This document shows positions 354 to 63,944 of a stretch of 64,000 nt of DNA, piece by piece (positions within the stretch are counted from its first letter, which is position 1; each line of letters opens with the position of its first letter). Position numbers and translations under genes: made by a program. The DNA comes from Pelagomonas calceolata (Eukaryota > Sar > Pelagophyceae > Pelagomonadales > Pelagomonadaceae). A model generated the notes under the pieces. The model did no database searches and was not told the origin of the DNA. It saw only the letters and a program-made list of their open reading frames with translations. Location: assembly GCA_918797485.1 (NCBI GenBank), contig CAKKNE010000005.1, forward strand, positions 992,001 to 1,056,000. Direction: 5' to 3'.

Positions 354-377
354 GCTAGCGTCGTAAAGACACTAGCC
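354..377 (+). promoter_or_regulatory. CTAG palindrome, copy 1 (candidate promoter element)
   Basis: GCTAGCG and CACTAGC arms flank a GTAAAGA centre. It sits in the 464-base gene-free stretch between the edge gene (start at 122) and the 3' end of the TIM21 gene, thus 5' of the edge gene. Nothing else is recognised in that stretch. Confidence 0.6.
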
Positions 378-586
378 TTCATTGAACAACGCGCGGTACG
401 GCTTGTTCACGGCACGCGCCCGCCGCCGACGAATCGACAACGCGTGGCGTCTCCCCCACAAGCGGGATCCGCCCACTAGTCCTAGCACCGTAACAATATC
501 AGACGCGCGGCGTCCCCCACGCGCTCGGCCCACCTTCCCCCACCGCTCGAGGACGACGCCAACGACGCGACTACTAGAAACCTTAC

Positions 587-1342
587 TCACCACTTGTCCG
601 TCTTCTCTCCGGTGGAAGACGGCTCCGTCCCCAGCAACCCCGCAAGAGCTGAACGCTCCTTCTCGTTCCGAGGCGCTTGAGCCGCCAGCATCATCCTATT
701 ATCAATCAACGTATTCACGACACCGGTCCGCCGGTTCTGGACCATCAGATACACGAAGCCATCGTATTGGTCAGACACTTCCGCGAAAGCGAAGCCTTCG
801 CCGTACGGACCTTTAATATTGAACCGGACCCGCATCCTATTACTACCATCTTTTTCATCGACGTAAGGCGTATTTTCAATAAAGTTCCTCCTCCCCTCGC
901 GGTGGCCGCCGTGGTCGCGGCCGTAGCCCTTGAGTGGCGTCCCGTACACGCGTTCGATCGTGGAATTGGATCGGATGACTTCAAACGCTTTGTCGAAGAC
1001 GCTGTTCGGGGAGAGTTTCGTGGGCATGAGCTCCCGAAAGATGTAGTAGCCGCAGACCGACGCCAAGCCAAGTCCCGCGGCCCACGCACTCAGGTTGAGG
1101 CCAACGCCGACCTTCTGGGCCGGCGTCAACGGCACGAGATCATCAATGTCGTCCTCCGTCGCGCGCTCGACGGCGGACTTCTTCTTCTGCGGCGGCTTCT
1201 CGTCGGCGGCGAGTCTTCGGCGCTGCGCTCTGATGGCGCGCGCCGGCGGCCTGGCTACCGCGGCGCGCGCGGACTGGACGTGGATGGCCCGCGGTGCCGC
1301 GCGCGCGGCCGCGCGGCTCGTCACGGCGAGCCTCGAGAGCAT
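587..1342 (-). CDS. TIM21: Mitochondrial import inner membrane translocase subunit Tim21
   Basis: Tim21 is the inner-membrane TIM23-complex subunit that contacts the outer-membrane translocase and couples import to respiratory complexes. The 251-residue protein starts at the ATG at 1340-1342, chosen because it opens an Arg/Ala-rich mitochondrial presequence; the frame is open 89 codons further upstream but without conserved sequence. One membrane helix (VGLNLSAWAAGLGLASVCGY) precedes the intermembrane-space domain with the family block TPLKGYGRDHGGHREGRRNF and a later RVRFNIKGPYGEG strand. Length and order fit the family. Its 5' side is divergent to the ABM-domain gene. Confidence 0.85.
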   Translation of the reverse strand: MLSRLAVTSRAAARAAPRAIHVQSARAAVARPPARAIRAQRRRLAADEKPPQKKKSAVERATEDDIDDLVPLTPAQKVGVGLNLSAWAAGLGLASVCGYYIFRELMPTKLSPNSVFDKAFEVIRSNSTIERVYGTPLKGYGRDHGGHREGRRNFIENTPYVDEKDGSNRMRVRFNIKGPYGEGFAFAEVSDQYDGFVYLMVQNRRTGVVNTLIDNRMMLAAQAPRNEKERSALAGLLGTEPSSTGEKTDKW

Positions 1343-1786
1343 GTTTGCTGCTGGTCGTGCGGCTTTGCTGCGGCCGCGCACGGTCCGGCAGCGGCTCGGG
1401 GGAGCTCTTCTCGGGCAAGACAACCCGTCTAGACCAGTGGACCCACGGCTGCGACTCGACGCGACGCGCTTGGGAGCCAGCGAGCTGGAGAGGCCAGCCC
1501 CTCTGCCAGAGCTCTTGGTGGCTAAACACAGCCGTAGACGGTTATAGCTCGGATCCTGCGGCGTGTGCAGGACGGCTGCGTCGCGCGAACGCCGCGACGA
1601 CGAGTGCAATCGCTTGCGGCGCGTGCTGTCTCACTGTGAGAGAGCCAGTGCCAAACACACGCTCTGCACGGCGCGCGTCGGCACTCGTGCCGCACCAGCG
1701 CTGCTACTCGTTTGCACCGTCCAGCACTTGTCCGCCACGAGCGCTGACGCTGCCGCTGCCGACGCGCGAAGTGTTCGCGGCGAGCA
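1343..1786. other. Divergent intergenic region, TIM21 / ABM gene
   Basis: 444 bases between two start codons. No good copy of the CTAG palindrome is present. A short perfect palindrome TCTCACTGTGAGA lies at 1629-1641. Presumably it holds both promoters and 5' UTRs. Confidence 0.4.
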
Positions 1787-2699
1787 ATGTCGATGGACGA
1801 CACGTTCTCCGAGAGAGCGCCGACGGTCGGCCCGCAGATCCGCACATTAAGACTCGTGGAACACGTGAAACCGGAGCAGGAGCAGGCCTACCTGGAGTGG
1901 AGCCGCGAGTTCTCCGACGCGCACGCGAACTTCATCGCGGCGCGGGACCCGGAGAGCTGGTCGAGCGTCGTGATGATTAGGGACCGCGCGTTTGGAAGGA
2001 ATGATGTACGCTATATCAAGGTCTTCCGCTTCCCCGACGACGCCATCTTCGAGGCCTGGACGGCGTCGGACGAACGGCGCGAGATGATCCGGAAGGGGCT
2101 AGCTTTGAACTTCGCGGTGGACGAGAACGCCCTCGAGCGTATGTGCGCGGCGTCGTTTTTGGTCAACTTTACGCCATCGACGCGGTCGCGTCGATGGCGT
2201 GGAGGTCGCACTTGTACGCCATCGACGCGACGGCGTGGATGATTCGGCGCCAACGCAGGGGAGTTCCGGAGGCGGAGCGCCGAGGAGCAGTTTCCGTGTG
2301 TGTCCGGCGTCCTTGACACTTGCGAGCCGCGCGGCGATGGCGTCGTCACTCACCGCCCGAGTCCCGCGCAGGATCTTCGACATGTTCACGGAGGACCCGA
2401 GTAAGGGCTGCTCCCGCGACCGCGTCGCGTCGGCGTGTTTGATCGGGCTGCAGGTGTATTCGTTGGTGACACTTTACACGTACTTGCTCGGATTTATCCC
2501 CGGCTTTGCGTCATTACATATGCAGCTCCAGCTCCTCGTGTCGACGCCGCTTGTCGTGGCTTCTATAGACGTCGTGACGAACCAATTTGTGGTCAAGGCG
2601 GCACGGGCGGTCGGAATCCTGCCGAGACCGCCAACGAAGTGGGGTGGAGCGCCTGTTGTAGTGCCTCCGCCATCGCCTCACGCGACCGAATCAGTGTGA
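1787..2699 (+). CDS. ABM-domain protein with C-terminal membrane hairpin (three exons)
   Basis: Proposed exons are 1787-2161, 2259-2299 and 2372-2699, together 744 bases (247 residues). Exon 1 encodes a dimeric alpha/beta-barrel ABM (antibiotic biosynthesis monooxygenase-like) domain: EHVKPEQEQAYLEWSREF, then a RYIKVFRFPDDAIFEAW strand and a SDERREMIRKG helix. Exon 3 carries two hydrophobic helices (about LIGLQVYSLVTLYTYLLGF and LLVSTPLVVASIDVV). ABM plus a C-terminal membrane hairpin is the layout of the bacterial COG3224 family, whose function is unknown. Both introns carry the repeated core motif and end in GCAG; without splicing, exon 1 runs into repeat sequence and stops. Splice sites are inferred, not observed. 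Confidence 0.65.
2162..2258 (+). repeat. Intron 1 of ABM gene, introner-like
   Basis: 97 nt, GTCAAC...CGCAG, phase 0. It contains three copies of the core motif: ACGCCATCGACGCG at 2171-2184, immediately followed by its reverse complement at 2185-2200 (a near-perfect palindrome), and ACGCCATCGACGCGAC at 2216-2231. Removing it joins the ABM frame to the downstream frame. Confidence 0.6.
2300..2371 (+). repeat. Intron 2 of ABM gene, introner-like
   Basis: 72 nt, GTGTCC...GCGCAG, phase 2. It carries GGCGATGGCGT (core motif in inverse orientation) at 2333-2343 and a TCACTCACCGCCCG segment that recurs near 14570. Splicing gives ...SSFRV-IFDMF.... Confidence 0.55.
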
Positions 2700-2727
2700 A
2701 CCCCTTGTTTGATAAGTGTAAGTAACT

Positions 2728-9329: not shown

Positions 9330-10352
9330 TTATGACCGCAGATTCTGCCATAGCCTGCGACTCAGCATCGGGTAGAGCCTGTCCAGGGTAGCGTAACCCC
9401 GCCGGCGCTGACGCTCGGGATAGTGATCTGACCAAGGATCCCAATCATCCACGTCGGATGGGACCTCATACGGCGCGATGTCTTCCGGGTCGAAGAGGGC
9501 CCCGAAGCCCACGAAAAAGTGCAGGCGACCGCCTGCGGCGGCGGCCGCGAGACCGGGAGCGTCCATGTAGGCCAAATGAGCAAAATAAACGGGGTATTGT
9601 GGACAAGTGCCTTCGATGTCAATAGTAATCGCACTCGTTACGAGGTCGACGACGAGGCGGAATTGCGCCGGAGAATCGAACACTTGGCCATCGGTGTCGG
9701 TTAATTCCCAATGGTGGACTACCCTTCTCCGCGGGTTGCCCTCTCCGAGGTGATCTCCGATGTCAAAGTACCATGCCTCGTCGGCGTCGTCTGTCCTGAC
9801 GCCTAAGAGAAGCCCCTCGGCATCTGGCGCGTGTACGGTAAAGTGCGCCACCCATACTTCGGGCCCCGAGAGGAAATTTGGTCGCAAATCGGCTACGGCG
9901 GCATGATTGTCGAAGTCCCGATCGCGCTCCCCCCGCGCCAAGGGTTCTTCCGACCAGACACATTCCTCGACCCGCGATAGTGGCGGGTTTCGCGCACCGA
10001 GACCATAACGCGGGTTGTAGGCCGGCGTCCTCGACACTCGTAGCGACGGCAACCTTAGTGGAATCGGACTAGGGTAATTATCCCACAGCGACGCGCTTGT
10101 GGTGAATTTAACGGTTCGCAGGTGGGCGTACACGCGGCGCCAGCTCCCACACACGGCCCACGCTGATCGACGGTTGTGACTTTGCGCCTGCCCGCACCAG
10201 CGACTCCGGACCGCGCAGCGCCAAAGTTCTTCCTGGACGAGCGTCGGCCGGTCGCGATACGCGCCGCGGTTCAGCCGCTGCAGCGCGAGAACAGCGCGCC
10301 AGTCCGCATACTGCGCAACCTTCAGCAGTAGCTCTGGAATGTCCAAAATCAT
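9330..10352 (-). CDS. F-box-like protein, 340 residues
   Basis: The first ~45 residues (LDIPELLLKVAQYADWRAVL, LQRLNRGAYRD) fit an F-box: a Pro, then alternating hydrophobics leading to a 'LN' turn, implying a substrate adaptor of an SCF ubiquitin ligase. The rest (Trp-rich, with FHVHAPDA-like beta segments and LLLGVRTDDADEAWYFDIGD) may be a beta-sandwich or SPRY-like domain, but I cannot assign it. It is transcribed away from the CTAG palindrome at 10521-10543. Confidence 0.5.
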   Translation of the reverse strand: MILDIPELLLKVAQYADWRAVLALQRLNRGAYRDRPTLVQEELWRCAVRSRWCGQAQSHNRRSAWAVCGSWRRVYAHLRTVKFTTSASLWDNYPSPIPLRLPSLRVSRTPAYNPRYGLGARNPPLSRVEECVWSEEPLARGERDRDFDNHAAVADLRPNFLSGPEVWVAHFTVHAPDAEGLLLGVRTDDADEAWYFDIGDHLGEGNPRRRVVHHWELTDTDGQVFDSPAQFRLVVDLVTSAITIDIEGTCPQYPVYFAHLAYMDAPGLAAAAAGGRLHFFVGFGALFDPEDIAPYEVPSDVDDWDPWSDHYPERQRRRGYATLDRLYPMLSRRLWQNLRS

Positions 10353-10520: not shown

Positions 10521-10543
10521 GCTAGTGTCTTACGCCGCTAGCT
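10521..10543 (-). promoter_or_regulatory. CTAG palindrome, copy 2
   Basis: GCTAGTGTCTTAC, then GCCGCTAGC. It lies about 170 bp 5' of the F-box gene start and 65 bp past the end of the JmjC gene. Confidence 0.65.
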
Positions 10544-12272: not shown

Positions 12273-12296
12273 GCTAGCGGCCAGTAAAGACACTAG
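12273..12296 (+). promoter_or_regulatory. CTAG palindrome, copy 3
   Basis: GCTAGCGGCCA then GTAAAGACACTAGG, in the 524-base divergent interval between the JmjC gene (start 12030) and the MATCAP-like gene (start 12555), roughly 240-260 bp from each start. No other feature is recognised there. Confidence 0.65.
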
Positions 12297-12554
12297 GAAC
12301 CGGCTTCGAACATATTCGTCCGCGGAGGTGTCTTCAGGAGAGCCGTCCGAAGCGTCAATGGCGTGGGCGAACGGCGGCCGGGCAGCAGACCGCGAGACTT
12401 GAGAGCGCTGCACAACACAAGGGAGAGCGTGCTGCGCAACGCGACCAAAGGCTGCCGCGCAAGAGCCGGCCATCTCCTGCAGCAGCGCGCCGGCGTCGCG
12501 CGTGGCCCGTGGCCCGAACGCTGCCCCGTAGCGCGCGGGCCCAGACGCTGCCCC

Positions 12555-20261: not shown

Positions 20262-21095
20262 CTATTTATCGGGCGCCCCCTCCTCGCCTCCCAGCAACCT
20301 CTCCCCGAGCATCGCCTCCACGGCGGGGATCAGCTGCTGGCACATGGCGGCCTCGGCGACTGCGTCGCCGGCCGCCTGATCGAGGTTCGCGAGCATGTCC
20401 TTGCGCAAATCCTCCACCTTCGACACGTCAGATACCATCTCGAGGATCTTCGACTCGCGTTTCTGTAGTGACGCGAAAGCTTTCTCCGCGAAGCCTTCGT
20501 CGTCCAGCGCCGCCCGCAACGCCTTGACGCGTTGCGCGACGCCTTCGTGCAACTGTTTTCCTAGACTCGCCTCGAACTCGGCCAGCGTCTCCCGAAAAAT
20601 CTTCACATCAACATCGAGCGCCTGGGCGCACCGCTCGCAGAACGCGTCGTGCGTCTCGACGGATATCTTCTCGGCCTCGACGTAGGCGCCGCACTCCGTT
20701 GCGAGGAAGGCGACGCCGCGGGCGTAGGCATGCGCCGCGTCGCCGGGTTTGTAGTCCTCGGGCCGCTTCTTCTGGAGGTTCTGGAGCTTCACATCCATCC
20801 AGAGCACCGCGAGTTTCGACTCGTCGCGGTCCGGCTTGAGCGACTCGGCCTCGAACTCGTCGAGCGCCTCGCACTCGCCGCCCTCCTTCTTTAGTTGCGC
20901 GACTGCGGCCGCGTAGCGCTTCGAGGCCTTCGTCTCCTCGTCGTCGTCGTCGTCGTCCACTGGTTCGCCGCCGAAGAGGCCTTCGCCGTCGTCGTCGCTG
21001 CCGCCGCGCAGCGCTATGCTCCTCGCACGAGTCTCGTGCAGCGCCGACGCCGTCGTCGCGAGCGCGAGTGCAAGTAGCAGTCTTAGAGATGGCAT
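20262..21095 (-). CDS. Plastid/secretory-targeted helical protein, unknown
   Basis: 277 residues. A signal peptide (MPSLRLLLALALATTASALH) with a stramenopile-style ASAL junction is followed by a basic serine segment, an acidic run (VDDDDDDEETK) and a long mostly helical body rich in Glu/Ala/Lys (FRETLAEFEASLGKQLHEGV). Two CxxC-like cysteines (FCERC) are present. No family recognised. Its promoter side has CTAG copy 4. Confidence 0.5.
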   Translation of the reverse strand: MPSLRLLLALALATTASALHETRARSIALRGGSDDDGEGLFGGEPVDDDDDDEETKASKRYAAAVAQLKKEGGECEALDEFEAESLKPDRDESKLAVLWMDVKLQNLQKKRPEDYKPGDAAHAYARGVAFLATECGAYVEAEKISVETHDAFCERCAQALDVDVKIFRETLAEFEASLGKQLHEGVAQRVKALRAALDDEGFAEKAFASLQKRESKILEMVSDVSKVEDLRKDMLANLDQAAGDAVAEAAMCQQLIPAVEAMLGERLLGGEEGAPDK

Positions 21096-21239: not shown

Positions 21240-21262
21240 GCTAGGGCCTGTAAGACACTAGC
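21240..21262 (+). promoter_or_regulatory. CTAG palindrome, copy 4
   Basis: GCTAGGGCCT, then GTAAGACACTAGC, 145 bp 5' of the gene starting at 21095, in the 353-base interval before the end of the next minus-strand gene. Nothing else is recognised there. Confidence 0.65.
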
Positions 21263-22171: not shown

Positions 22172-22262
22172 TGGTGCGCGGTGGAGGCCTCGGCGCTTCA
22201 ACGATGTGGCAATTTATCTTGCTCTGTGCGTCTCGCCCGAGCGCGGGAGTGAAGCGCCCAAT

Positions 22263-22286
22263 GCTAGCGGCATGTAACACACTAGC
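22263..22286 (+). promoter_or_regulatory. CTAG palindrome, copy 5
   Basis: GCTAGCGGCAT then GTAACACACTAGC, in the 334-base divergent interval; 92 bp from the plastid-protein start and 220 bp from the start of the multidomain reductase gene. Confidence 0.65.
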
Positions 22287-22505
22287 AAGCGCGCTGTGCC
22301 ATTTTTGGACGCGTACGCAGCCTGTGGCAAGCATTCGTGCTCGTTCGTACGTCTGCATAAGCGCCTACATATCGCATCACTGCTGCGGCGCGCGTTAGCT
22401 GGGGTGAGCTGCTCGCTGCGTTTGCTGCTGCTCTGGCAAAGAGCCGTGCAAAGCCGGACGCCGGCGCATGCATTTGTAAATGCACCGCTAGCATCGCTGC
22501 GAACA

Positions 22506-26850: not shown

Positions 26851-26872
26851 GCTAGTATCTTACTGCCGCTAC
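26851..26872 (-). promoter_or_regulatory. CTAG palindrome, copy 6
   Basis: GCTAGTATCTTAC then TGCCGCTAC, between the end of the multidomain gene and the PDE12-like gene, 136 bp 5' of the latter's start. Confidence 0.6.
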
Positions 26873-27007
26873 CTAAATCACGCGCATCAGGTTTTGTGAC
26901 ACGAACGACTCGCATAACTGGCGCTGTGTGCGGCAGCGCATTTGTGCGTGCATGCGAAAGAGTCTTGCGCTGCAAAACGACGACGCGCAGCGATTTGGCA
27001 CACATTG

Positions 27008-29071
27008 ATGTGGAGGGTGTTGCTGCTGGCAACTGCAAGCGCCTTAAGGGTGCAGCCACGGCGTCGCATACATAGCCTGAGAATGGCTGCTGCTGCCGCA
27101 TCAGTGATCGTCGAGACGGATGCCACGGACAGCGTCAAAATTACCATCGGCGCCCGCACGCTGCAGCGAACGGCTGGAGAACCGCTGCAGAAAGCTTTGG
27201 GCCGTCTCGCGCCGAAGAAGCCTAAGAAAGGCAAGAAAGCAGCGCCTGCGCCGCCGGCCCCGCCGGCGCGATTGCTGGATGCCACCGACAGCGAAGTCGA
27301 CGTGGCGACGCCTCTGCTAGATGCGCTGACGCGCGGACGATGGCTCGAGCTCGAGGGCGCGCGCATTCCTGTCGCCCTTAATCCTCCGACAGTCGTGGCC
27401 GTCGAGTGCTACGGCGAACCGACGGCCGGCTCGCCGCTGATGCCCCTCGCGGAGCTGAAGCGTGCCGAAGCAGACGACGTGTGCTATTGCTACTCGCTGG
27501 ACGGCGAGGCATGCGGCACCGGGGCTGCCTTCACGCCGGATGACGAAGCAGTCGGTCGCACGCTCACGGTCGAAGCGTCGGTCGGCGACTCCTGCGTCAC
27601 GCGCGACCTCGGCAAAGTGGCGCCGCGGTGGCGGAGGCCGGAACACGACGCCCGCGTGGCGGCGATCGGCGCTCCGGCCGGGATCCGTGTTGCGACGTAC
27701 AACGTGCTCGCCGACGCCTACCGCCACACCTGGGACGCCGGCATTCACACGCACTGCGAGCCACGGTACACGGCGGCCTCCCGGCGCATCCCTATGGCCA
27801 TTGACGAGGTATTATCGTATGCGCCGTCGATCGTCGCGCTGCAGGAGGTCGACCCGCGCTGGTGGGAGCGCCTGTGGCTCCCGAGGCTCCGGGCTGAAGG
27901 ATACGACGCCGCTCTCGTTTTGAAGAGCGGTGCGGCGCAGGAGGGCGAAGCTATTGCCTGGCGGCGTGGCGCGTGGACTCCCGTCGAGAGCCGCGAGATC
28001 GCGTTGTCCATCGGCCGCGCCGACGCCGCGGAACGGGAAATTGCACCGCCGTCAGCTATTGCCGAGTTCCTGGCCGCCCACCCGTCTGCCGCGGAAGCGA
28101 TGCGACGCATCGGCACCGTCGCGCAGCTCGTCGTGCTCGAAGATAAAGATGGCCGCCGCCTGTGCGTCGCGAACACGCACTTGTTTTTCGCGGGGCGCGC
28201 GACGCACGTTCGCACGATCCAAGCCGCGTTGATAATCGAGGAGGCGTCCAAACTTTGCGACGCGACGGGGGCTAGTCTGGTCGTCGTCGGAGACTTGAAT
28301 GCGGAAAATCATGATGCGGCCTTGCGGTACTTGCTCGACGGCGGCGTCGCGGCGGACGATCCTGATTGGTATACTGGTAGCACCTTCTCCTGGGGCTACG
28401 CGTCGTCGCGCAGGGCGCGCGCGAGGGCCGTCGACGCCTTCGCCGCGGCCGACGGAGACCTGGACGCCGCGCTCGACGCCATGGACGCGGCGCAGAGCGG
28501 CGACCTCGCGGCCGAGCGGCGCACGCGCGCCGCCGCGAGCCTCCGGCTCGTGTCTCGCGAGCCGCCGAGTGGCGACGTCGAGGAGCTGGTCGCCGCGCTG
28601 GCCGCGGGCGAGACGTACAAGACGAACCCTCTCGTCGCGCTGTTTCAAATGCGCGCAGACTGCGGCCTGCGGCGCGGCGGCCTCTCGCTCGTTGATGGGG
28701 AACTCGATGCCGCAGCGACAGCTGTGGAGTCGCTCCGCGCCCGCGCCGAGAGCGCCGCGGCGGCGGGGCGGGTCGCGCAGACGGCGCTCGTCAAAGCCGC
28801 GGAGGGCGACGACGTTGTCGGCATCGGCATGCGGCTCGCGCACTCGCGCAAGCTGGCGTCGGCGTACCCGCGGACGGAGCCCTACACGAACCTCGCGGGC
28901 AACGACTTTGTTGCCACGCTGGACTGGATCCTCCACGAGGACGCGTTGCGGACGCGGGCCGTGGCGCCTATTCCGGACCTGGACGCGGTGCGCGCGGCGT
29001 ATTTCGCGCTGCCCTCGGAGTCGTTCCCGTCGGACCACGTGTGTCTTGTGGCGGATTTGGAGTGGTCTTAA
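27008..29071 (+). CDS. PDE12-like endonuclease/exonuclease/phosphatase-family nuclease
   Basis: 687 residues from the ATG at 27008, which opens a signal/transit-type N-terminus (MWRVLLLATASALRVQPRRR). After a beta-rich N-terminal domain comes an EEP nuclease core: RVATYNVLADAYRHTW, then IVALQEVDPRWWERL (catalytic Glu), NTHLFFAGRATHVRTIQ, LVVVGDLNAE (Asp/Asn) and a C-terminal SFPSDHVCLVADLEW (Asp-His). Order and the N-terminal extension fit 2',5'-phosphodiesterase 12/CCR4-type deadenylases, which trim 3' oligo(A) in mitochondria of animals. An Ala/Arg-rich insert of about 150 residues follows GDLNAE. Organelle targeting inferred. Confidence 0.75.
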   Translation: MWRVLLLATASALRVQPRRRIHSLRMAAAAASVIVETDATDSVKITIGARTLQRTAGEPLQKALGRLAPKKPKKGKKAAPAPPAPPARLLDATDSEVDVATPLLDALTRGRWLELEGARIPVALNPPTVVAVECYGEPTAGSPLMPLAELKRAEADDVCYCYSLDGEACGTGAAFTPDDEAVGRTLTVEASVGDSCVTRDLGKVAPRWRRPEHDARVAAIGAPAGIRVATYNVLADAYRHTWDAGIHTHCEPRYTAASRRIPMAIDEVLSYAPSIVALQEVDPRWWERLWLPRLRAEGYDAALVLKSGAAQEGEAIAWRRGAWTPVESREIALSIGRADAAEREIAPPSAIAEFLAAHPSAAEAMRRIGTVAQLVVLEDKDGRRLCVANTHLFFAGRATHVRTIQAALIIEEASKLCDATGASLVVVGDLNAENHDAALRYLLDGGVAADDPDWYTGSTFSWGYASSRRARARAVDAFAAADGDLDAALDAMDAAQSGDLAAERRTRAAASLRLVSREPPSGDVEELVAALAAGETYKTNPLVALFQMRADCGLRRGGLSLVDGELDAAATAVESLRARAESAAAAGRVAQTALVKAAEGDDVVGIGMRLAHSRKLASAYPRTEPYTNLAGNDFVATLDWILHEDALRTRAVAPIPDLDAVRAAYFALPSESFPSDHVCLVADLEWS

Positions 29072-29157
29072 AATGTCTGTTGTCTCTAGCTCGAAAACCC
29101 CGTTTTTATCACTGCGCAACCACGGGCGCTGCTTCAGGGCTCCCCGGAAATCGTGGA

Positions 29158-29178
29158 CTAGCGTCCTAAGACACTAGC
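29158..29178 (+). promoter_or_regulatory. CTAG palindrome, copy 7
   Basis: CTAGCGTCCTAAGACACTAGC, between the PDE12-like gene end (29071) and the NSF-N-like gene, 189 bp 5' of its start. Confidence 0.65.
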
Positions 29179-29366: not shown

Positions 29367-30770
29367 ATGCAGGACTCTCCTCTGCGGCATGAGCCGCACG
29401 CCTGGCTCCTACAAGCGCTTGCGGAGAGCCATAGCACAAACGGCGCCGACGAAATCACGCCCGGGCGGCCCGGCCTTTCGAGGGAAGCGGTGGCGCCGCC
29501 GAAGCCGCCTGACAAGCTCGTGGTCGCGAGAAAGCCCCAACCTATGCGGAAGAATGAGCCTGAAATGCGTGTCGTGGTGCATCCCGCGGACTTCGAGGCC
29601 TACCATGCGGGTGGCGACGGCCGGCTCTACCTGCGGCTGAGCGACGGCGCCGCCGCCGCCGCGGACGAGTCAAGCGGCTGGGTTTACCAGGTCGTCGCGG
29701 ACGCTGGTATCGAGGCCGGCTCCGTCGGCATGAGTAGACGCACGCGCGAGGACACGGGATTATTCGGTATCGGCACCGCGCCCACCGTGCGGCCCTGGCA
29801 GCCGTCGCCAGATCACGCCCTCGCGACGCTGCATTTTTCCTGCGCCCCGGCGCCGGAGCATCTTCCCGCGGACGACGACAGGTGGTTCGTCGACAAGCGA
29901 ACTCTGCGCGAGTTCCTCCTCAAGAGCTTCGCGGGCGTTGTCGTGAACAAAGGCCACCGGGAGACCTTGGTTTACACTCAGCCGAATATGACGATAGTGC
30001 TCACAGTCGACAAACTCGAGGTGGCGGGCGCTCGCGGAGAGAGCGTCTGCTTCGGCCAGATCGTCGCGACCACCTCCATCGAGATCGAGAAGGCGGCCGG
30101 GGCGGGCGCCAATTTCTTGGTGATGGAACATAATCGCATCCAGAAGGTCATTTTCAAGGTGCTGTATTACGTCTTGTGGCCACTGTTCTGGCTTGAGGAC
30201 GCGCTCAAGAGGCTCGCCGCAGCAAACGCAGGAGGCGCAGAGGCCGCGCCCGCCGCCGCGGCCGGAGATGGCGACGCCGCGGCCGCCGCAGGAGGCGGCG
30301 CGGCGGCCCCGGTCCAGCCCGGTGGTTTCGTTGTTGGTATGGTGGTTGGCGTGCTTGGCGTGTTACTGATTTTTACCCTCGCTCTCGCGGCTATCGATAT
30401 GGCGCGGTACCTGTGGGCGCGGGTCGTCGGCATCGGCTTCCTATCGCCCGTCTTCGCGTTGATTCGCTCCGGTCTCGTTGCCTTCGCCGGCTCCATGCCG
30501 GTCAAAATCTTCCTATGCGTGCTCTACGCGTACGGCTCGCCGCAACTAGATCCTCGTCATCCGAAGCATGCGGAACTGGTCGCGAAGTTATCCAAAAATG
30601 ACAAGACGGCGGCGCAGAGCCATATGACCGAAAGCACCTTGATCATCGACCAGGGGTTCATCCTGGCAAATTCCTTCGTCGACATATTGTTCACGCTGGT
30701 CGCGGTGACGGTCGTCATGAAGGTCTGCAAGTACCTCACGCCGGAGCCGGCCTGGTGGATGTTCGTATAG
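29367..30770 (+). CDS. Membrane protein with NSF/Cdc48 N-domain-like region
   Basis: 467 residues; the start could also be the internal Met at MRKNEPEMRVVVHPADFEAY. The soluble half resembles the N-terminal substrate/adaptor domain of NSF-type AAA ATPases (LREFLLKSFAGVVVNKGHRE then MTIVLTVDKLEV, like the Cdc48 domain-2 fold), but no AAA module follows. Instead there are hydrophobic segments (ALKRLAA preceded by IFKVLYYVLWPLFWL; FVVGMVVGVLGVLLIFTLAL; VKIFLCVLYAYG; FVDILFTLVAVTVVM), giving three or four membrane helices. The similarity is weak, and the function is unknown. Confidence 0.5.
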   Translation: MQDSPLRHEPHAWLLQALAESHSTNGADEITPGRPGLSREAVAPPKPPDKLVVARKPQPMRKNEPEMRVVVHPADFEAYHAGGDGRLYLRLSDGAAAAADESSGWVYQVVADAGIEAGSVGMSRRTREDTGLFGIGTAPTVRPWQPSPDHALATLHFSCAPAPEHLPADDDRWFVDKRTLREFLLKSFAGVVVNKGHRETLVYTQPNMTIVLTVDKLEVAGARGESVCFGQIVATTSIEIEKAAGAGANFLVMEHNRIQKVIFKVLYYVLWPLFWLEDALKRLAAANAGGAEAAPAAAAGDGDAAAAAGGGAAAPVQPGGFVVGMVVGVLGVLLIFTLALAAIDMARYLWARVVGIGFLSPVFALIRSGLVAFAGSMPVKIFLCVLYAYGSPQLDPRHPKHAELVAKLSKNDKTAAQSHMTESTLIIDQGFILANSFVDILFTLVAVTVVMKVCKYLTPEPAWWMFV

Positions 30771-32489: not shown

Positions 32490-32742
32490 TGTGGCTGCCC
32501 CTGGCTGTCTTTGCCCGGTCCTCGTGTGCGGTTGTGCGAGCAGCCTGCGGCGGCTGGCGTCCTCGGTCGACTGGCGCCGTGCGTCCCGGTCCGCGTGCGA
32601 CGGGGGCCAATTGATATTGATGGCGCTGAGGCTGCTCTCCCGGCCGGCGGTTTTTGCATGTGGCGACCTCCGTGCGCCACTCTTCCGAGGCGTGGAGTTG
32701 CGGCCCCGAGGAGTCGTCCGGGCCGCGATGCGATCGCCAAAA

Positions 32743-32763
32743 CTAGCGGCCGTAAGACACTAG
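32743..32763 (+). promoter_or_regulatory. CTAG palindrome, copy 8
   Basis: CTAGCGGCCGTAAGACACTAG, a near-consensus copy, in the 571-base divergent interval between the SHIPPO gene (start 32489) and methionine aminopeptidase (start 33061). The rest of the interval shows nothing recognisable apart from A+T-richer sequence near 33000. Confidence 0.7.
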
Positions 32764-33060
32764 CCAGCTGGGCTTTTGCACTTTAGACTTGGCTGGCAGC
32801 ACACGCGTGTGTAGACGCTTTCGAGGGCGTTAGCATTCGTGCGTTAAAGTTGGCAAGAGGCTGCGGCGGCTCGCTGTCGCGCTAAACCACGAGCCAGCTT
32901 TGCAGCCTACCTAGCTCTCACTGGCATTGCTCACGGTCGCGCACGCGGTCGCGCGGCGCAGCACCCGCGCGAGGGACGCGAACAACTAAAACAGCGCGAA
33001 TATATACACAGCGCGACGACGCCGCATCTATAGACAGCGCAAAAACATAGACGCGTAACC

Positions 33061-40233: not shown

Positions 40234-40710
40234 TCATCGTCTCCGATCCAGACCGGTCGACGGGAAGCCCATGGCTATTAGTCTAGGTGTGACGTCCGTC
40301 AAATCGAGGTCGAACTCGACGGAGTCGATTGAGGTTTGTGTCCGCTTCTTCTTTTTGCTCACTTTGTGGCGCATGGCGTCGAAGAAGAAGGTTCTATGCG
40401 CTCGTGGCGTGACCGCGGTCGCAGACGCGGTCGGCGTCGGCGCGGGCGTCGGCGGCACGTGGCTTTGTTCGTGGCGCGGGCTCGCGCTGCGGCCGCGGCG
40501 GGGCGACGGCGAGCCCGGCGTCTTGACTTCGCCGGAGCTGCCGTCCCTGGCGGCGTGGTAGCGGCGCCGCGGGTCGGCCGCCACGTCAATCGGCGGCGCT
40601 CGCCTCCTGTCGTCTCTGGACGATCGTTGCCGCGGCGCCTCGCGGTCGGCCCAGTAAGGCCGCCGCGGCGCGGCGTCGCTCGAGCACTGCGCTTTTATTG
40701 CCATTACCAA
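40234..40710 (-). pseudogene. Truncated PTEN/tensin-like N-terminus
   Basis: 158 codons. A basic, Pro/Ser-rich lead (PRRGRSASPRHEQ) is followed by SVEFDLDLTDVTPRLIAMGF and PSTGL, which matches the start of PTEN-type phosphatase domains (F-DLDLTYI-x-P-x-IIAMGFPA). The frame then stops; the catalytic HCxxGxxR loop and C2 domain are absent here. It is either a gene fragment left by rearrangement or a first exon whose partner lies elsewhere. Confidence 0.45.
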
Positions 40711-41110
40711 TAGGTATATTTTTCGGCTCTGTTGCTGCTCGGGAGAGCAGATTCGGCAGGCTATCGTTAGTGGTCGTCGTTATGAGTCCAGAGGGTTGCA
40801 CTTCGCGCCTCCTGTGTTCTGTCGTCGAATCGCGGAGCTTGGTCGGCTCTCCAGGCTGGGCCTTTGCCGTAAAGTCTGGTAAATGCACGACGCCAAGGTA
40901 CGCACACCTCGTCAGGGCCCTTTCCTAGAGCTCAAACGGAGCGCTCCGCCCGCGGGACGCTTCCGTGTTCAAGTCCACCTTCGAGGCGCCGGGACCGCGC
41001 GATGTCGCCTGATGCAGGCAGTGACGATCGGGAGGCGTCCGTGCCGGACGCGTACCGCCTCATGCGCGTCGGCGACGCCTCGTACCCCTACCATCTGCCT
41101 CCTGGAGAGT

Positions 41111-41135
41111 CTAGTGTCTTTAACAGGCCGCTAGC
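41111..41135 (-). promoter_or_regulatory. CTAG palindrome, copy 9
   Basis: CTAGTGTCTTTAAC then AGGCCGCTAGC, in the 603-base interval between the PTEN-like frame and the EF-hand gene, 179 bp 5' of the latter's start. No gene seen in the interval. Confidence 0.65.
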
Positions 41136-41313
41136 ATTATCCACAGCGCGGCGGGAGAGCGCGCTGGAGTTAGTTGCGAGTTCCTCGTAGAGAGTTTGTG
41201 GCTTAACGAACCAGTGAGATAGAACAGCAGCGCCATCCGCTCGGCCGAGCAGGGAGCGCACAGCACGCCGTCGGGGCAGCCCCAAGCCCCAAGCAAGAGC
41301 ACACAGAGACACC

Positions 41314-43485: not shown

Positions 43486-45284
43486 GCTCGGGACGTAGGT
43501 ACCCCATCCTCTTCCCTGATCACCCCATCTCCTTCATATGATGACGCTCGCCGGCGCGGGCGTCTGACCTCCCATCACCACAAAAATTGCTGCTGGCGCG
43601 GGCGCGCGTGCCACAGCTGAAAATCAACCTTAGGCTAATTAATGGATGTATTATATTCTTGGCAGTAGTGTATTTGCTGAGCATTGGGCGGCGGGACGTC
43701 TCCGAGAGGCCGCGTCGACGTCGTGCGGAAGACTGCCCGTCGCCCGACGCCGAGCCGCCGGCCAATTCCCAGATCCGCCTCGCTCGCTACCAGCGGTGCC
43801 CATGCTGATGTGATTGATACCGCGATCGCTTTCGATTCTAACGCGGCTGAGAGCCGGTAGCTGCTGCAAAAAGAGCAAGACCGAGCTAGCGTATTGATAC
43901 ACACTAGCAAATTCTAAGATACGCCTCAGTGGCGTCAAAAGAATGACGGAAATTCAGAATACATCCTAGTCGTTCGCCGATACCAAAGATTTCAGAGTAG
44001 CGGTCCGGGAACATACCCTCGCGCCTCCCGGAAGGCACCGCCCGTGACATTCGCGGATGAGTCTTACGAGTTTCCAAAGTAGACCAGCGATTGACGCCGC
44101 CATTTCCCGTCCGAATGGGACATTATATCAACTCCAGCCCAGTTTTCATACATAATCGACGGAACCGGAGCCGACGGCCCACGCTCGGAGGGCGGGAGAA
44201 GAATTCTACTAGACAACTCTCGCGTTTATGTTCGTTTTTATCCGTTTGTTAGTGGTAGAGTCCATCTAACCCGCATCGGCGTGCGCTGAGCTATTTTAGG
44301 TCATCCGTTAGAGCCGCGCGATTCGACGACTCCGCGCCCCTGCTTTTGCACGAAGATGGCAAAATAACCTGAACCTGCGAGTATCAGCGACGATACCATC
44401 CAGATGGACCATAACGCCGTTGTTCTATTCACAATCGACCGACTTGCCCGTTCTCCGCGGACGACGGTGCGTACGCGGGGCACTGAATTGGCCCCAGACC
44501 GGTGGTTTATAAAGTAAATTTGCGTTTCAGGCGCTTTAGTTGTGGGACGGGCTAGATAACCGGCCTGAGCGGCTACTACATTGCTCGAGACCCCACGATG
44601 CTCCGCGCGGCTCGTCCATCCCGGGACCCCAATATCTCCTCAATTTGGACTTAAGACCTGGACCTGCGACCATCAGCCCGTGTACCATCACCATGGACCA
44701 TAATGAGATCATTTGTTTCATGAACGACCGACTTGCTCGAGGTCCAGATCAAGATGTTCACGTCCCGAGCGTGGTCGGCCAAAAGTACCCTTCTCGTGGT
44801 GTAGATGTCATATACTTGTAATTGACTATCGGTGGGGTAGTATGGGGTCCAACGAGACCGCTACGGCGACTACTGGGGCCCTAGAGAAATTAACGTTTTT
44901 TACGGGAACGGGGCGCCATCGGGTCCAAATTATTTACTTTTTTCGGATGCAGATCGGCTCGCAGTCGCCCTCTGGGATAGGTCTAAGGTCGGGTGGTCCC
45001 TACGCCGCATACGCCGGTTCTTGGGGCTCCCCAGATGGCTCTGGATCCAAAACTTTGGGGACTTGGGCTCCAGCCCGAAACTGGCTGAGGACCTGTACTG
45101 ATATGTATCCTCCGATGGGAGCGCACGCGCACGCGGTGTAGGCGATTGCCCACGTCTAGTACCGACCCTAGGCGACTCCCGGGAGACCTCAGGACCACGA
45201 ATCGACAGGGGCGGCCGACCGTTTGGTCCGTCGGCTCGGCGAACACGAGATTTCGAGGGCCCCGCCCGAGCTACCCACTACTCG
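43486..45284. other. Gene-poor stretch with a diverged internal duplication
   Basis: About 1.8 kb with no convincing gene and lower G+C than its surroundings. Two segments, about 44388-44470 and 44657-44740, align (CCTGAACCTGCGA / CCTGGACCTGCGA, ATGGACCATAA in both, CGACCGACTTGC in both). On the minus strand they read as related short peptides (ALWSIWMVSSLILAGSG and SLWSMVMVHGLMVAGPG). This looks like decayed repeat or mobile-element DNA; no transposase is seen. Confidence 0.45.
43885..43908 (+). promoter_or_regulatory. CTAG palindrome, copy 10 (no evident target gene)
   Basis: GCTAGCGTATTGATACACACTAGC, with a diverged centre. It is the only copy not close to a recognisable start codon; it lies at the left of the gene-poor stretch. 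Confidence 0.5.
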
Positions 45285-45300
45285 ACGCCGTCGACGCGAC
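45285..45300 (+). repeat. Introner core copy near 3' end of RRM gene
   Basis: ACGCCGTCGACGCGAC, an intact core copy 9 bases beyond the RRM gene's stop codon, presumably in its 3' UTR. Confidence 0.4.
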
Positions 45301-45308
45301 AATTATAC

Positions 45309-45899: not shown

Positions 45900-46101
45900 C
45901 TGCACCGATGGCGTGCCGGTGGAGGCAGCCTCGAATCGAGCTTGTCTGGCGGGAGAGGCAGCGTTTGTGCCCAGTGGCCAGGCTTTTTTGTAACAGTTGA
46001 CAGCCCACTGCGCCTGGACCCGCACGACGCCGCCGCGAAACCAGGATTCTTGGCGGTGCGAAAAAGTCATGCAATTCAAAGTATACGGCTCTTCGAGCCG
46101 T

Positions 46102-46123
46102 GCTAGCGGCGTAAGACACTAGC
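46102..46123 (+). promoter_or_regulatory. CTAG palindrome, copy 11
   Basis: GCTAGCGGCGTAAGACACTAGC, the cleanest consensus copy, almost exactly midway in the 435-base divergent interval: 203 bp from the RRM start and 212 bp from the FUN14 start. Confidence 0.75.
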
Positions 46124-46334
46124 AAGCCAGCAAGCCGACTCGAGGCCGGTGCGTTCTTACAGCCCACAGTTCGTCATACGTCGGCGGAGAGTAATATCTG
46201 TTTGCTGACTCGATAACCTGCGCGCTGCGCGAGTCAAAAACGAGCCCAAGAGCCTCAACAGGCTCAGAGTTTGAAATATCCACTACTCCGAAACACAACG
46301 AACAAACGCGCACAGCGCTAATCAATTGTAGACG

Positions 46335-46943
46335 ATGGCCACGCGCTGCGCCATTCGCCGCCTCTCTCAATCGATGCGCGCCAGCGCGCCGCTGGCCGCC
46401 GCCGGCTCGCTCGCGGCGCTCGCCGCGCCGCCCGACGCACAGTGCTTGTGGTGGCGCCGCGACGCCGCCGCCAAGGAGGCCGAGCGCAAAGCTGCACTAA
46501 GTCCACTCGAGCGCCTCGCCGAGTTTGGGAAGGACGTCTCAACGAGCGACGGCCCGGGAGCCGTCGCCGACAAGATGCTAGAGGAAGTAGGTAAATTGGC
46601 CTCGGAAGCCCTCGCGACGGGCTACCCGAACCAGGTGGGCTGGGGCTTCTGCGCGGGTTATTGTACGGGCTTCGCGGCGAAGAAAGTGGGCAAGGTCGGC
46701 TTCGTCGTCGTCGGCAGTATGTACGCGCTACTCCAAACGGCGGCCTACCACGGCTACGTCACCGTGGACCACGCCAAGATCTCGCGCAAGTTCACGCAAG
46801 TGTTGGATGCGAACAAGGACGGGAGAGTGGATTCGAGGGACGCGCAGGACCTGTACGGCCAGGCCATGAAGGTCCTCGAGTTCAACGGGCCCTCGGGCGG
46901 CGGCTTCGGCGCCGGCGTGCTGCTCGGCCTGCGGTCGGGCTGA
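46335..46943 (+). CDS. FUN14-domain protein with EF-hand-like insert
   Basis: 202 residues. The N-terminus is mitochondrial in type (MATRCAIRRLSQSMRASAPL). The FUN14 core follows: VGWGFCAGYCTGFAAKKVGK, a hydrophobic GFVVVGSMYALLQTAA helix, HGYVTVDHAKI, and the closing GGGFGAGVLLGLRSG. Between the last helices sits DANKDGRVDSRD, an EF-hand-like calcium loop. FUN14 proteins (FUNDC1) are outer-membrane mitophagy receptors in animals; no clear LIR motif is visible, so the role here is open. Confidence 0.75.
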   Translation: MATRCAIRRLSQSMRASAPLAAAGSLAALAAPPDAQCLWWRRDAAAKEAERKAALSPLERLAEFGKDVSTSDGPGAVADKMLEEVGKLASEALATGYPNQVGWGFCAGYCTGFAAKKVGKVGFVVVGSMYALLQTAAYHGYVTVDHAKISRKFTQVLDANKDGRVDSRDAQDLYGQAMKVLEFNGPSGGGFGAGVLLGLRSG

Positions 46944-49018: not shown

Positions 49019-49259
49019 GGCTTTGCGCTGCGCTTTTCGACTGATCCCGTGTGCCGGCTTGGGCCCGCGTGACGACGACGCGTAGCTGTTCAGCTCTGAC
49101 GCTGGCTGTGGGTTCCTTCCGTCTCCCGGGGCGTCTGCGCTTTTCACGTGTGGCCCGGAGCGTCGAGAGGTGCGACTGGATCCACTGGCTCGTCGTGAGG
49201 CAGGCGCACAGCGCTGTTGTTCAGCACTTTGAGTCAGAGTCGACGGCAAAATCGCGAAC

Positions 49260-49282
49260 CTAGCGGCCTGTAAGGCACTAGG
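49260..49282 (+). promoter_or_regulatory. CTAG palindrome, copy 12
   Basis: CTAGCGGCCT then GTAAGGCACTAGG, in the 477-base divergent interval, 242 bp from the PSY start and 214 bp from the LRR-mTERF start. No other feature recognised in it. Confidence 0.7.
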
Positions 49283-53954: not shown

Positions 53955-53978
53955 GCTAGCGACCTGAAAGGCACTAGC
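53955..53978 (+). promoter_or_regulatory. CTAG palindrome, copy 13
   Basis: GCTAGCGACCTGAAAGGCACTAGC, in the 446-base divergent interval, 199 bp from the YqgE-family start and 225 bp from the Rtf2 start. Two copies of a CCCGCG-CC-AAAAACAAAGCCACAGAG-type segment (about 54090 and 54160) form a short direct repeat before the Rtf2 gene. Confidence 0.65.
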
Positions 53979-55114: not shown

Positions 55115-56131
55115 TCACATTACGCGTCGCCGCTTCGGCTCCGGCTCCGCGAGGGCTGCCGGCGTCTTCCCCGCGGCGAGCGCGCGCGTATAATTGCGAT
55201 GCTCGGCCGTCTCGTACCACGCGACCGTTTCTCGGATAGCGTCGGCCAGAGGCGTCGGTCTCCAGTCCAGGGCACTCAGCGCCGCGTCGACGCAGATGGG
55301 CCCGCCCACGTCGACGGTCAAGAGGGGAGCCTTCCGCGCGGCGTCGAGGGCGTAGTCGCGGCCAGCGGCGACGAGCGCGGCCAGCTCCGCGACTGACACA
55401 GGCTGGACGCAGGCGATATGCAATACCTTGGGCGGGTTTGATGCCGTGAGCGCCGCGACGACCGCGCGCCCAACGTCAGGCGCGTACGCGATTGAGCCGA
55501 CGTGGGGTTTCCCGTCCGCGACGTGCTTCACAGCGCTGCCCACGCGCCCGCGGCCGACGGCGTCGATGAGGTCCAGGAAGCCTCCCAAATTATCTCTGGG
55601 ACCGATGACGTCCGGCAGCCGCAACGAGACGCTGTCGATCGTCGCATAGACCTCCTCGGCGTCGAGCTTGGCCGACCCATACCCATACTGGTACGAGTCG
55701 CGGCGCTTGAGTTCAGCGATGGCTTGGCGTGACGTGGCGCGCACGGCGTCGGCCTCGACGAGTGAGTCTTTCTGTACGCGTTCGCACGCCGCGAAGACCG
55801 AGTCCGTGGAAATGTACACGCAGCGCGGTGGCGTTTCCAAACTCGCAATGGCATCCACGACGGTCGACGCATCGACGACGTCGAAGCAAGTCGTGTCTAC
55901 CACACCGCTCCATTCTTCGCTCGCGATCGCTTCTGAGACAGCTTCTCGGTCCTCGAAGCGGTCCGCATGTATCGCACCCACGCGTGGGTCGCCTTCAAAA
56001 GGCGAGGGCGTCACGCCTCGGTTCAGCAGCGTGACCTCGTAGCCCTGTTTGAGCAGCTCTCTTACAATGTGCACACCGATGAATTGCGTGCCGCCGAGTA
56101 CGAGGACTCGTTTTTGAGGGTCAGCAGCCAT
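55115..56131 (-). CDS. Extended SDR / NAD(P)-dependent epimerase-type protein
   Basis: 338 residues from the ATG at 56129-56131. A Rossmann start RVLVLGGTQFIGVHIVRELL, then VTLLNRG, VVDTTCFDV, CVYISTDSVF and the catalytic-type YGYGSAKLDAEE (Tyr-x3-Lys), and a substrate half LRLPDVIGPRDNLGGFLDLI. It resembles plant CSP41/atypical epimerases and bacterial mycofactocin-like epimerases. No targeting peptide; C-terminus PKRRRVM. Substrate unknown. Confidence 0.75.
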   Translation of the reverse strand: MAADPQKRVLVLGGTQFIGVHIVRELLKQGYEVTLLNRGVTPSPFEGDPRVGAIHADRFEDREAVSEAIASEEWSGVVDTTCFDVVDASTVVDAIASLETPPRCVYISTDSVFAACERVQKDSLVEADAVRATSRQAIAELKRRDSYQYGYGSAKLDAEEVYATIDSVSLRLPDVIGPRDNLGGFLDLIDAVGRGRVGSAVKHVADGKPHVGSIAYAPDVGRAVVAALTASNPPKVLHIACVQPVSVAELAALVAAGRDYALDAARKAPLLTVDVGGPICVDAALSALDWRPTPLADAIRETVAWYETAEHRNYTRALAAGKTPAALAEPEPKRRRVM

Positions 56132-56195: not shown

Positions 56196-56219
56196 CCTAG
56201 TGTGTTACTCTCCGCTAGC
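56196..56219 (-). promoter_or_regulatory. CTAG palindrome, copy 14
   Basis: CCTAGTGTGTTACTCTCCGCTAGC, centred in a very short (151-base) divergent interval, 64 bp from each of the two start codons at 56131 and 56283. This symmetry supports a bidirectional promoter role. Confidence 0.7.
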
Positions 56220-58627: not shown

Positions 58628-58650
58628 GCTAGTGTCTTACTGCCGCTAGC
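58628..58650 (-). promoter_or_regulatory. CTAG palindrome, copy 15
   Basis: GCTAGTGTCTTAC then TGCCGCTAGC, in the 347-base divergent interval, 192 bp from the MFS start and 134 bp from the downstream gene's start. Confidence 0.7.
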
Positions 58651-59767: not shown

Positions 59768-59777
59768 TGATACAAGC

Positions 59778-62011: not shown

Positions 62012-62023
62012 TGTTTTCGCGCT

Positions 62024-62194: not shown

Positions 62195-62214
62195 CTAAGT
62201 GTGTTTTACCTAGC
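62195..62214 (-). promoter_or_regulatory. Degenerate CTAG element in Cpn10/DapB interval
   Basis: CTAAGTGTGTTTTACCTAGC keeps the GTGT-x-TTAC core and the closing CTAGC, but the first arm is CTAAG. It is about 98 bp 5' of the DapB start and 184 bp from the Cpn10 start. Confidence 0.45.
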
Positions 62215-62311
62215 CCCAAAAGCATAAAGCTGAAGGCGAGCTGGTGTAGACAGCCGCTGTGCATCGCTGTTGCACCGACGCCGTCGCAAAGACTTGTTTA
62301 CAGCTTTAAGA

Positions 62312-63389
62312 ATGGCTGCCGCACGATGCGCGTTGGCCCTGGCACTGCTCGCGGCGCCTACCCAAGCCCTCGCTGCCAGACGCCGCTCCCCCGTGCGCAT
62401 GTCGATAGATGTGTGGAAATTAACTTCAGGCGCCCTACGCCATCGAAGCGATGCTGTAGCTCAATGGTTGATTTCCACACAGGTCGATAGCGCCGAGCGA
62501 CGTCGTCGTGATGATGAACGGCCTCCCCGGCAAGATGGGCTATTCGTGTGCGGAGGCGTGCGTGGCCAGAGGCATGACGTTAGCCGACGTCGCATTGACC
62601 GGTGAGCCCTTCGCGGGCACTCCCACGGATGACCGCATCCCCAAGGTCGACCTGGTAGCCGGCGGCTCCGACGAAGCAGAGAAGCGCGGCGCAGAACTCG
62701 CCAAAAAGTGCAAGGAGCAAGGCAAGGTGTTGGTCGCGGTCGACTTCACGGCGCCGCAAGCGGCTTTACCGAACGCCGAATATTACGCGAGGCACGGCAT
62801 GCATTTTGTGATGGGGACGACGGGCGGCGACTACGACGCGATTGGAAAGACCGTGACGGACGGCAAGCACGGCGCCGTGGTCGCGCCGAACATGAGCAAG
62901 CAGATCGTGGCCATGCAGGCCGTGGTGGACCAGGCCGCTCGTGATTTTCCCAATGCGTTTGCGGGCTACGACCTCACGGTGATCGAGTCCCACCAGAAGG
63001 CCAAAGTGGACACCTCTGGAACTGCAAAAGCAGTGGTCGCGTCGCTGAAGGAATTAAATGGAGGCGGCTTCCAGGTCGAAGACGTCGAAAAGGTCCGCAA
63101 CGACGAGACCTCGTTGAATGGGGCCAACGGTCGGTTAGGTAAGGTGCCTAGTGAACACCTGCCGGGCCACGCCTACCACACCTACGCGTTGACCTCGGGC
63201 GACGGCACCGTGACGTTCGAACTCAGACACAATGTTAATGGAAGATCGACGTACGCCGAGGGCGTCGCGGACGCGTGCTTGTTTCTCGCGGCGAAGGCCG
63301 ACGCGGGCTTCCCGCGGGCGCGGTTTCTGGGGCGCCGAAAACGGCTCTTCGACATGATCGATGTTTTACAGGAGGGGGCCATGTCCTAA
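62312..63389 (+). CDS. dapB: 4-hydroxy-tetrahydrodipicolinate reductase (DapB), plastid type, two exons
   Basis: Proposed exons are 62312-62400 and 62483-63389 (996 bases, 331 residues). It catalyses the NAD(P)H reduction step of the diaminopimelate/lysine pathway. Exon 1 gives the leader MAAARCALALALLAAPTQAL then AARRRSPVRM; exon 2 starts SIAPSDVVVMMNGLPGKMG, the plant-type nucleotide site. Later: VAVDFTAPQA, HFVMGTTGGDYDAIGKT, VVAPNMSKQIVAMQAVVD, VIESHQKAKVDTSGTAKAV (catalytic His and Lys, substrate Ser/Gly-Thr). The intron is a mobile introner. Confidence 0.9.
62401..62482 (+). mobile_element. Introner element with target-site duplication in DapB
   Basis: The element body (62409-62482, 74 bp) is flanked by identical 8-bp copies GTCGATAG (62401-62408 and 62483-62490). 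Its ends are inverted repeats TGTGTGGAAATTAAC and GTTGATTTCCACACA (one mismatch). The middle is a nested palindrome around CTACGCCATCG / CGATGCTGTAG, matching the core motif of other introns here. The donor GT is the first two bases of the left duplication and the acceptor AG closes the element, so splicing restores the sequence before insertion. Confidence 0.85.
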
Positions 63390-63404
63390 GTAGCTTATCG
63401 TTAT

Positions 63405-63420
63405 ACGCCATCGCCGCGAC
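63405..63420 (+). repeat. Introner core copy 3' of DapB
   Basis: ACGCCATCGCCGCGAC, one mismatch to the core, 15 bases after the DapB stop codon. Confidence 0.35.
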
Positions 63421-63515
63421 CCCTCATAACTTTTGACAGAGAAGCACTTTATTAGTCTTTAAAAAACCGGTACCATATACAGAAAGCATGGGATGCCGTA
63501 GGATGCGGCGTTGAT

Positions 63516-63731
63516 TCATTCCGTCGGCGGCGACTCCGCCAAGGACTCGAGCGTCGTCGACGACATGCTTCGTAAAGCCGCGGCCGTCGCCGGCGACTCC
63601 GAGGGGAGCGGCATGGACATCTCGCGCAGGGCCGCCGCTTGGAGTCGGGTCGTGCCCGGCGGGTAGGTCGCGAGCGCCGCGAGCTGCGACGGCGACGGCG
63701 GCTGCGACTCGCGCACGGGCGAGCTCGGCAT
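63516..63731 (-). CDS. Short Ser/Pro-rich open frame, possibly a last exon
   Basis: 71 codons (MPSSPVRESQPPSPSQLAAL ... SMSSTTLESLAESPPTE). The frame extends upstream to a TCTAG site at about 63782, which could be an acceptor, so this may be the final exon of a gene whose 5' part is not resolved. No family recognised. Confidence 0.35.
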   Translation of the reverse strand: MPSSPVRESQPPSPSQLAALATYPPGTTRLQAAALREMSMPLPSESPATAAALRSMSSTTLESLAESPPTE

Positions 63732-63920
63732 CGACGCGCAGCGCGGCGTCGGCGGCTCCGACCGGTACTCTCTTTTAATCTAGAGGTTTAGCATGGACTA
63801 GTAGTAACTGATGTTGGCGCACGGAAGATCTGCGTAATTGTCACTGGCACCACGCGCAACTAACGTCGGTCGAGAGCTTGCTTATACGCAAACTGAGGCC
63901 GCTCGCGGTCACATTTCATT

Positions 63921-63944
63921 CCTAGTGTCTTACTGGACGCTAGG
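63921..63944 (-). promoter_or_regulatory. CTAG palindrome, copy 16
   Basis: CCTAGTGTCTTACTGGACGCTAGG, about 190 bp 5' of the short minus-strand frame. The bases from here to the window edge include TTACATATCC and no recognisable gene. Confidence 0.6.

Follow-up and report, generated by a model that had tools for sequence, protein, structure and literature searches.

The genome of the stramenopile Pelagomonas calceolata, an abundant alga of the ocean, contains a dispersed inverted repeat of 20–24 bases, A-GCTAGCGGC-n(0-4)-GTAAGACACTAGC-AA, which is placed in the intervals upstream of genes and which tends to lie in the middle of divergent gaps. It is highly probable that this repeat is a functional promoter-associated cis element, whatever its mechanism. 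From its sequence and placement, it may best be read as a DNA-level, orientation-independent promoter element that would be bound by a protein resembling the general regulatory factors and opening promoters, and a probability of roughly 0.6 is assigned to this reading. The original prediction had described a bidirectional element for a dimeric DNA-binding protein. The putative binding and activity of such a protein agree with the non-coding, 5'-end, central and strand-neutral placement of the copies and with the requirement for the dyad. The term bidirectional does not hold in a strict sense, as 18 of 31 tandem intervals also hold one copy.

Sequence data and search strategy

The scanned assembly consists of eight contigs with 32,445,274 bases, and the window, i.e., the whole 64-kb stretch of DNA from which the element was predicted, corresponds to C5:992001-1056000. 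The published assembly of P. calceolata RCC100 comprises six nuclear contigs (32.4 Mb), one plastid and one mitochondrial contig; it has 63% GC and 16,667 genes, and each contig contains one low-GC (52%) region of ~259 kb that was interpreted as centromere (PMC9481584). For the scan a gapped weight matrix, composed of a left half of 9 bases, a spacer of 0–5 bases and a right half of 13 bases, was trained on the window together with 20 randomly chosen regions of 10 kb (264 kb in total) and was used with a cut-off of at least 12 bits. Gene models were obtained by a simple, purpose-built coding-potential HMM with introns, and Pfam supports part of them. The called coding exons make up 73% of the 264-kb sample, and the HMM yields 43 divergent, 31 tandem and 44 convergent intervals. 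All placement rates are based on this sample and on 30 motif-centred loci of contig C1.

Architecture of the element

The half-site GCTAGYGKC is present on both sides of the element in inverted orientation, usually with 22 bp from CTAG to CTAG. The right half-site, read as reverse complement, carries a TTAC extension, which renders the element asymmetric. It had been proposed that the half-sites are about one helical turn apart; this has to be corrected, as the CTAG centres are separated by 16–20 bp (usually 18), corresponding to ~1.7 turns. The centre GTAAGA, which was described as conserved, is indeed found and belongs to the right half-site, but other bases take its place in a palindromic subfamily, CTAGYGTRnnnnYACRCTAG, which forms a minority and occurs at 110 places in the genome.

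As judged from 82 copies, 30 of which were picked by the strict pattern, the information lies within A-GCTAGCGGC-n-GTAAGACACTAGC-AAG and drops sharply to background 2–3 bases outside. For the unbiased 51 copies of the matrix scan, ~12 bits in the left half and 19 bits in the right half minus 1.9 bits for the choice of spacer result in ~29 bits, while 12–13 bits suffice for finding sites with a density of one per 5.2 kb. The asymmetric TTAC extension and this excess of information suggest that a second protein or module reads the site. The difference of ~29 versus ~13 bits constitutes a testable oddity, predicting two recognizing modules or proteins. Of 25 occurrences of the half-site CTAGTGTC, 24 lie within the element, and almost no solo half-sites of this sequence were found outside full elements. 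The sequence near the element is somewhat AT-richer.

Copy number in the genome

The matrix scan of the 264 kb revealed 51 copies with at least 12 bits versus none in the reversed sequence. Scores of at least 20 are reached by 49 of the 51, leaving a clear gap to the background and no continuum of weak sites. By extrapolation, the genome-wide total is estimated at ~6,000 copies, i.e., one per ~5 kb (5.2 kb). Across the genome the 12-mer GTAAGACACTAG has 2,364 matches (one in the reversed control) and the strict gapped pattern has 2,250 (none in the reversed control). If up to two mismatches are allowed, total lengths of 20, 21, 22 and 23 are matched 418, 923, 2305 and 242 times, respectively, with 0–1 matches in the controls. 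Chance occurrence was ruled out by these reversed controls. Arranged as a direct repeat, the half-sites have 10 matches in the genome versus thousands in inverted arrangement, and together with the counts for the different spacings this shows that the dyad arrangement and the preferred spacing are required. The viral contigs contain no match to the element and a viral carrier was rejected.

Copies within the window

The 16 copies originally listed for the window were all recovered within one base, and the matrix scan (at least 12 bits) returned exactly these 16. Seven of them had been assigned to divergent intervals, whereas our gene calls give nine, listed at 12273, 22263, 32743, 41111, 46102, 49260, 53955, 56196, and 58628. 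The copy at 12273..12297 (+) is located at the midpoint of the gap that separates a cupin/JmjC gene (-) from a MATCAP gene (+), the one at 49259..49282 (+) at the midpoint between the squalene/phytoene synthase (-) and mTERF (+) genes, and the one at 53955..53978 (+) at the midpoint of the gap before the Rtf2 gene (+). The middle of the gap between a SHIPPO-repeat gene (-) and a peptidase M24 gene (+) is occupied by the copy at 32742..32764 (+), and the gap between the MFS (-) and AIM24 (+) genes contains the copy at 58628..58650 (-). Further divergent gaps are 22172-22505 with the copy at 22263..22286 (+), 40705-41313 with the copy at 41110..41135 (-), and 45900-46373 with the copy at 46102..46123 (+). 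The copy at 56196..56219 (-), ~70 bp upstream of an epimerase gene (55115-56131, -), owes its divergent class to a short right-hand ORF, and the interval was scored as tandem in a later gene set. Pfam backs the gene calls on both sides of several divergent gaps, e.g., those of the copies at 12273, 32743, 49260, and 58628.

Tandem intervals harbor the copies at 354..376 (+), ~230 bp upstream of a gene starting at 122 (-), at 21240..21262 (+), 155 bp upstream of the gene 20262-21095 (-), at 26851..26873 (-), ~220 bp upstream of the gene 27083-29071 (+, Exo_endo_phos), and at 29157..29178 (+), ~198 bp upstream of the gene 29367-30770 (+). The copy at 10521..10542 (-) is positioned ~170 bp upstream of the ORF 9330-10352 (-), and the copy at 63921..63944 (-), near the window edge, is found upstream of a small called ORF (63516-63731, -). 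A near-palindromic variant at 43885..43908 (+) is located in a long gap of 2.4 kb, for which the genes are not assignable. The stretch of 1.8 kb at 43486-45308 holds one copy of the palindromic type and no recognizable gene, and it possibly represents an unannotated transcript. Structured RNAs or tRNAs were not found in the window.

Position relative to genes

None of the 51 copies in the 264 kb is located in called coding exons. By interval, 25 copies are divergent, 18 tandem, four nominally convergent and four unclassified. A copy is present in 24 of the 43 divergent and 18 of the 31 tandem intervals, together in 42 of 74 versus 31.7 ± 2.3 by chance, and a single one of the 74 holds two copies, with otherwise one copy per occupied interval. 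The element is not universal, since ~43% of the divergent and tandem intervals are without it; in length, these do not differ from the intervals that contain a copy. A k-mer search of the element-free promoters revealed no different element of similar strength. At the 30 motif-centred loci of C1, 17 copies were classified as divergent, nine as tandem and none as convergent, while four were not classifiable.

In divergent gaps the copies lie centrally, with a mean distance from the midpoint of 0.11 of the gap versus 0.25 for a uniform distribution (p < 1e-5), and this centrality persists if 60 bp are excluded at each end (p = 0.0005). In tandem gaps the copies are found 198 ± 65 bp from the downstream ATG, and their strand shows no preference relative to the gene (seven same, 11 opposite). 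An element within 400 bp is present for 38 of 65 genes. The predicted absence from convergent gaps was borne out: the 39 clean gaps of less than 500 bp (4.6 kb) contain no copy, with only ~6 expected from the copy density in the remaining gaps because these gaps are short (median 98 bp). All four nominally convergent copies lie in gaps of more than 600 bp. Two of these are due to genes missed by the HMM, i.e., the ORF 9330-10352 for the copy at 10521 and the ORF 3900-4556 in L047, and the other two (43885 of the window and L046:4808) are in long gaps with genes not assignable.

Pfam matches were obtained for 24 of 29 tested genes with an element and for 12 of 20 others, and the functions are mixed. 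A bias in gene function was rejected, as no common Pfam theme was found among the genes with an element. A signal on the level of RNA or splicing, considered for the donor-like GTAAGA, was ruled out since the element never occurs in called exons, is equally distributed on both strands and is common to divergent genes. The word GGCTGCCCC/GGGGCAGCC is overrepresented in promoter intervals, e.g., at 41272 and 16166 of the window, with no clear preference for strand or distance.

Scarcity in low-GC domains

Among the places listed, none of the 21-bp form falls into the region 2,545,233-2,963,179 of C1, for which ~12 are expected from the genome density, and no 22-bp or palindromic form among the places listed falls into ~2.59-2.93 Mb of this contig. 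A lone 12-mer GTAAGACACTAG is located in this trough at 2,695,656. A 9-kb sample from the middle of the C1 trough (L051) has 47.7% GC and contains ORFs and no element, and in two further low-GC regions (L039, L045) one copy was found in 20 kb. The element is nearly absent from these centromeric domains despite the presence of ORFs, and the genes there therefore seem largely to do without it.

Occurrence in related lineages

When 84,980 prokaryote genomes were scanned, matches were found in five contigs, all of them in marine metagenome-assembled genomes with bins labelled as Spirochaeta, Synechococcus or proteobacterium. Judged by alignment, at least three of the matched contigs are stray pelagophyte DNA. 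L053 shows 96% identity to C1:2154808-2155804, a stretch that includes a known element, L054 is collinear with C6:2236569-2246679 with mostly 83–90% identity, and L056 shows 82% identity to L043. At least some of the stray contigs are ~82–84% identical to the genome, suggesting that the bins are contaminated and that a second lineage similar to Pelagomonas exists. The contigs considered from prokaryote bins are L052, L054, L061 (MAG 'Spirochaeta sp. MED672'), L053, L055, and L056.

Comparing L056:2088 with L043:688, the core is identical, next to an indel of 15 bp and to bases that have diverged. The element at L054:2198 is kept in L057 apart from a single substitution and one additional base, and the one at L054:4290 is kept in L058 with one substitution in the core. 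For L054:5352 and L060, the element is present in both between conserved anchors and is inverted, and L059 has only a degenerate dyad in comparison to L054:461. These comparisons of orthologues are few and some of the contigs were found through carrying the motif; in them the element is retained longer than its flanks and can be inverted, and this favors selection acting on a DNA site irrespective of orientation. The evolution of the element becomes measurable with such orthologues, in which it is kept between diverged flanks and in one case inverted.

Possible mode of action and alternative explanations

The proposed mode of action would be similar to that of yeast Reb1 and Abf1 or of vertebrate bidirectional-promoter factors. 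Both half-sites would be bound by a homodimer or by a protein whose two DNA-binding modules are flexibly joined, the bound factor would clear nucleosomes between the promoters, and the cleared region would permit initiation on one or both sides. The sites of the yeast general regulatory factors Reb1, Abf1, and Rap1 are located in promoters of genes with broad functions and are linked to nucleosome-free regions, and the repertoire of these factors turns over between lineages (PMC2897762). In analogy, the Pelagomonas element is present in promoters irrespective of gene function (42 of 74 intervals). In contrast to the yeast sites, it is a different and much longer site (~29 bits), it belongs to a stramenopile, and its factor and nucleosome-free region are putative. 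Its ~29 bits, far exceeding the need of a general regulatory factor, argue against an assignment to this group. As a more far-reaching and rather doubtful possibility, one lineage-specific protein or complex might read the ~29-bit bipartite site, define more than half of the promoters of this dominant ocean alga, and both open promoters and divide divergent genes outside the centromeric domains, by a grammar unseen in other eukaryotes. No earlier report of the motif as promoter element was found in open-licence papers, an earlier description elsewhere being possible, and a word search of two Pelagomonas papers revealed no promoter motif or palindrome. General promoter elements are already known from yeast (PMC2897762) and vertebrates (PMC6192621), while the sequence, the lineage and the excess of information are new as far as could be checked. 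One highly specific element present in more than half of the promoters would offer direct access to gene control and would help promoter annotation and the design of reporters, and it suggests a single protein as the target of a search.

An architectural or insulator site, at which a long zinc-finger-type protein would separate promoters or anchor loops in a CTCF-like manner without activation, is regarded as unlikely. CTCF-type long zinc-finger sites have a long motif of high information and thousands of copies, as does the Pelagomonas element, and an insulator would also be in line with the very high information over ~27 bp that tolerates changes of the spacer, with one copy per interval and with a low-GC centromeric trough of C1 that has almost no copies. 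However, copies are found in tandem gaps too, at a rather fixed distance to the ATG, which points to a promoter function; the element differs from CTCF-type sites in being dyad-symmetric and tied to start codons, and it has no strand preference, whereas CTCF loop anchors are directional. Less likely still, the element would act at the core promoter or start site itself and position RNA polymerase II both ways instead of binding an upstream opening factor. This would resemble the vertebrate CGCG element TCTCGCGAGA, a short palindrome that drives divergent start sites (PMC6192621). Both elements are present in many promoters and have a dyad that suits bidirectional activity, and the narrow distance to the ATG, the dyad symmetry and the sharing by divergent genes would be compatible with such a role. 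The Pelagomonas sequence is, however, unrelated to TCTCGCGAGA and bipartite with a variable spacer (consensus GCTAGCGGC-n-GTAAGACACTAGC), a distance of ~200 bp would imply rather long 5' UTRs for so compact a genome, and a scatter of 65 bp is loose for an element at the start site.

That the copies represent a tiny mobile repeat or its remnant, inserted preferentially in open promoter chromatin, is very improbable and was rejected, even though it would agree with the thousands of almost identical copies, whose information exceeds the requirement, and with the clear gap between the scores of real copies and the background. Unlike a transposon or MITE, the copies have no common sequence beyond their ends, with ~0.04 bits per base over 125 bp on each side, and no target-site duplication was found (mean best match 2.45 versus 2.31 for shuffled partners, p = 0.14), while a genuine dispersed repeat of ~100–150 bp in the same genome is easily recognized by its shared flanks. 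The variable spacer, the rule of one copy per interval and the conservation in relatives fit selection. Neither matches regardless of gene starts nor target-site duplications, both of which had been named as evidence against the original prediction, were seen. The least probable explanation is that the copies mark origins of replication or hotspots of meiotic recombination whose location in promoters is incidental. In compact genomes both are typically located in promoters, so that the location of the element would fit, as would its near-absence from the low-GC and probably recombination-poor centromeric trough of C1, but ~6,000 sites with one per ~5 kb would be dense for origins.

A second dispersed repeat of ~100–150 bp, starting with GTTACGGTGCTAGGACTAGTGGGCGGAGCCCC, is present in the same genome with ~312 matches of its 26-mer core (up to three mismatches). 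Copies of this repeat are found at 411-496 (-) of the window, at L031:4897, L033:7257, L003:1342 and 2713, L005:2320, and at L054:299-455. Several of them follow a stop codon of the same strand at a distance of 30–120 bp, and once the repeat lies in a convergent gap.
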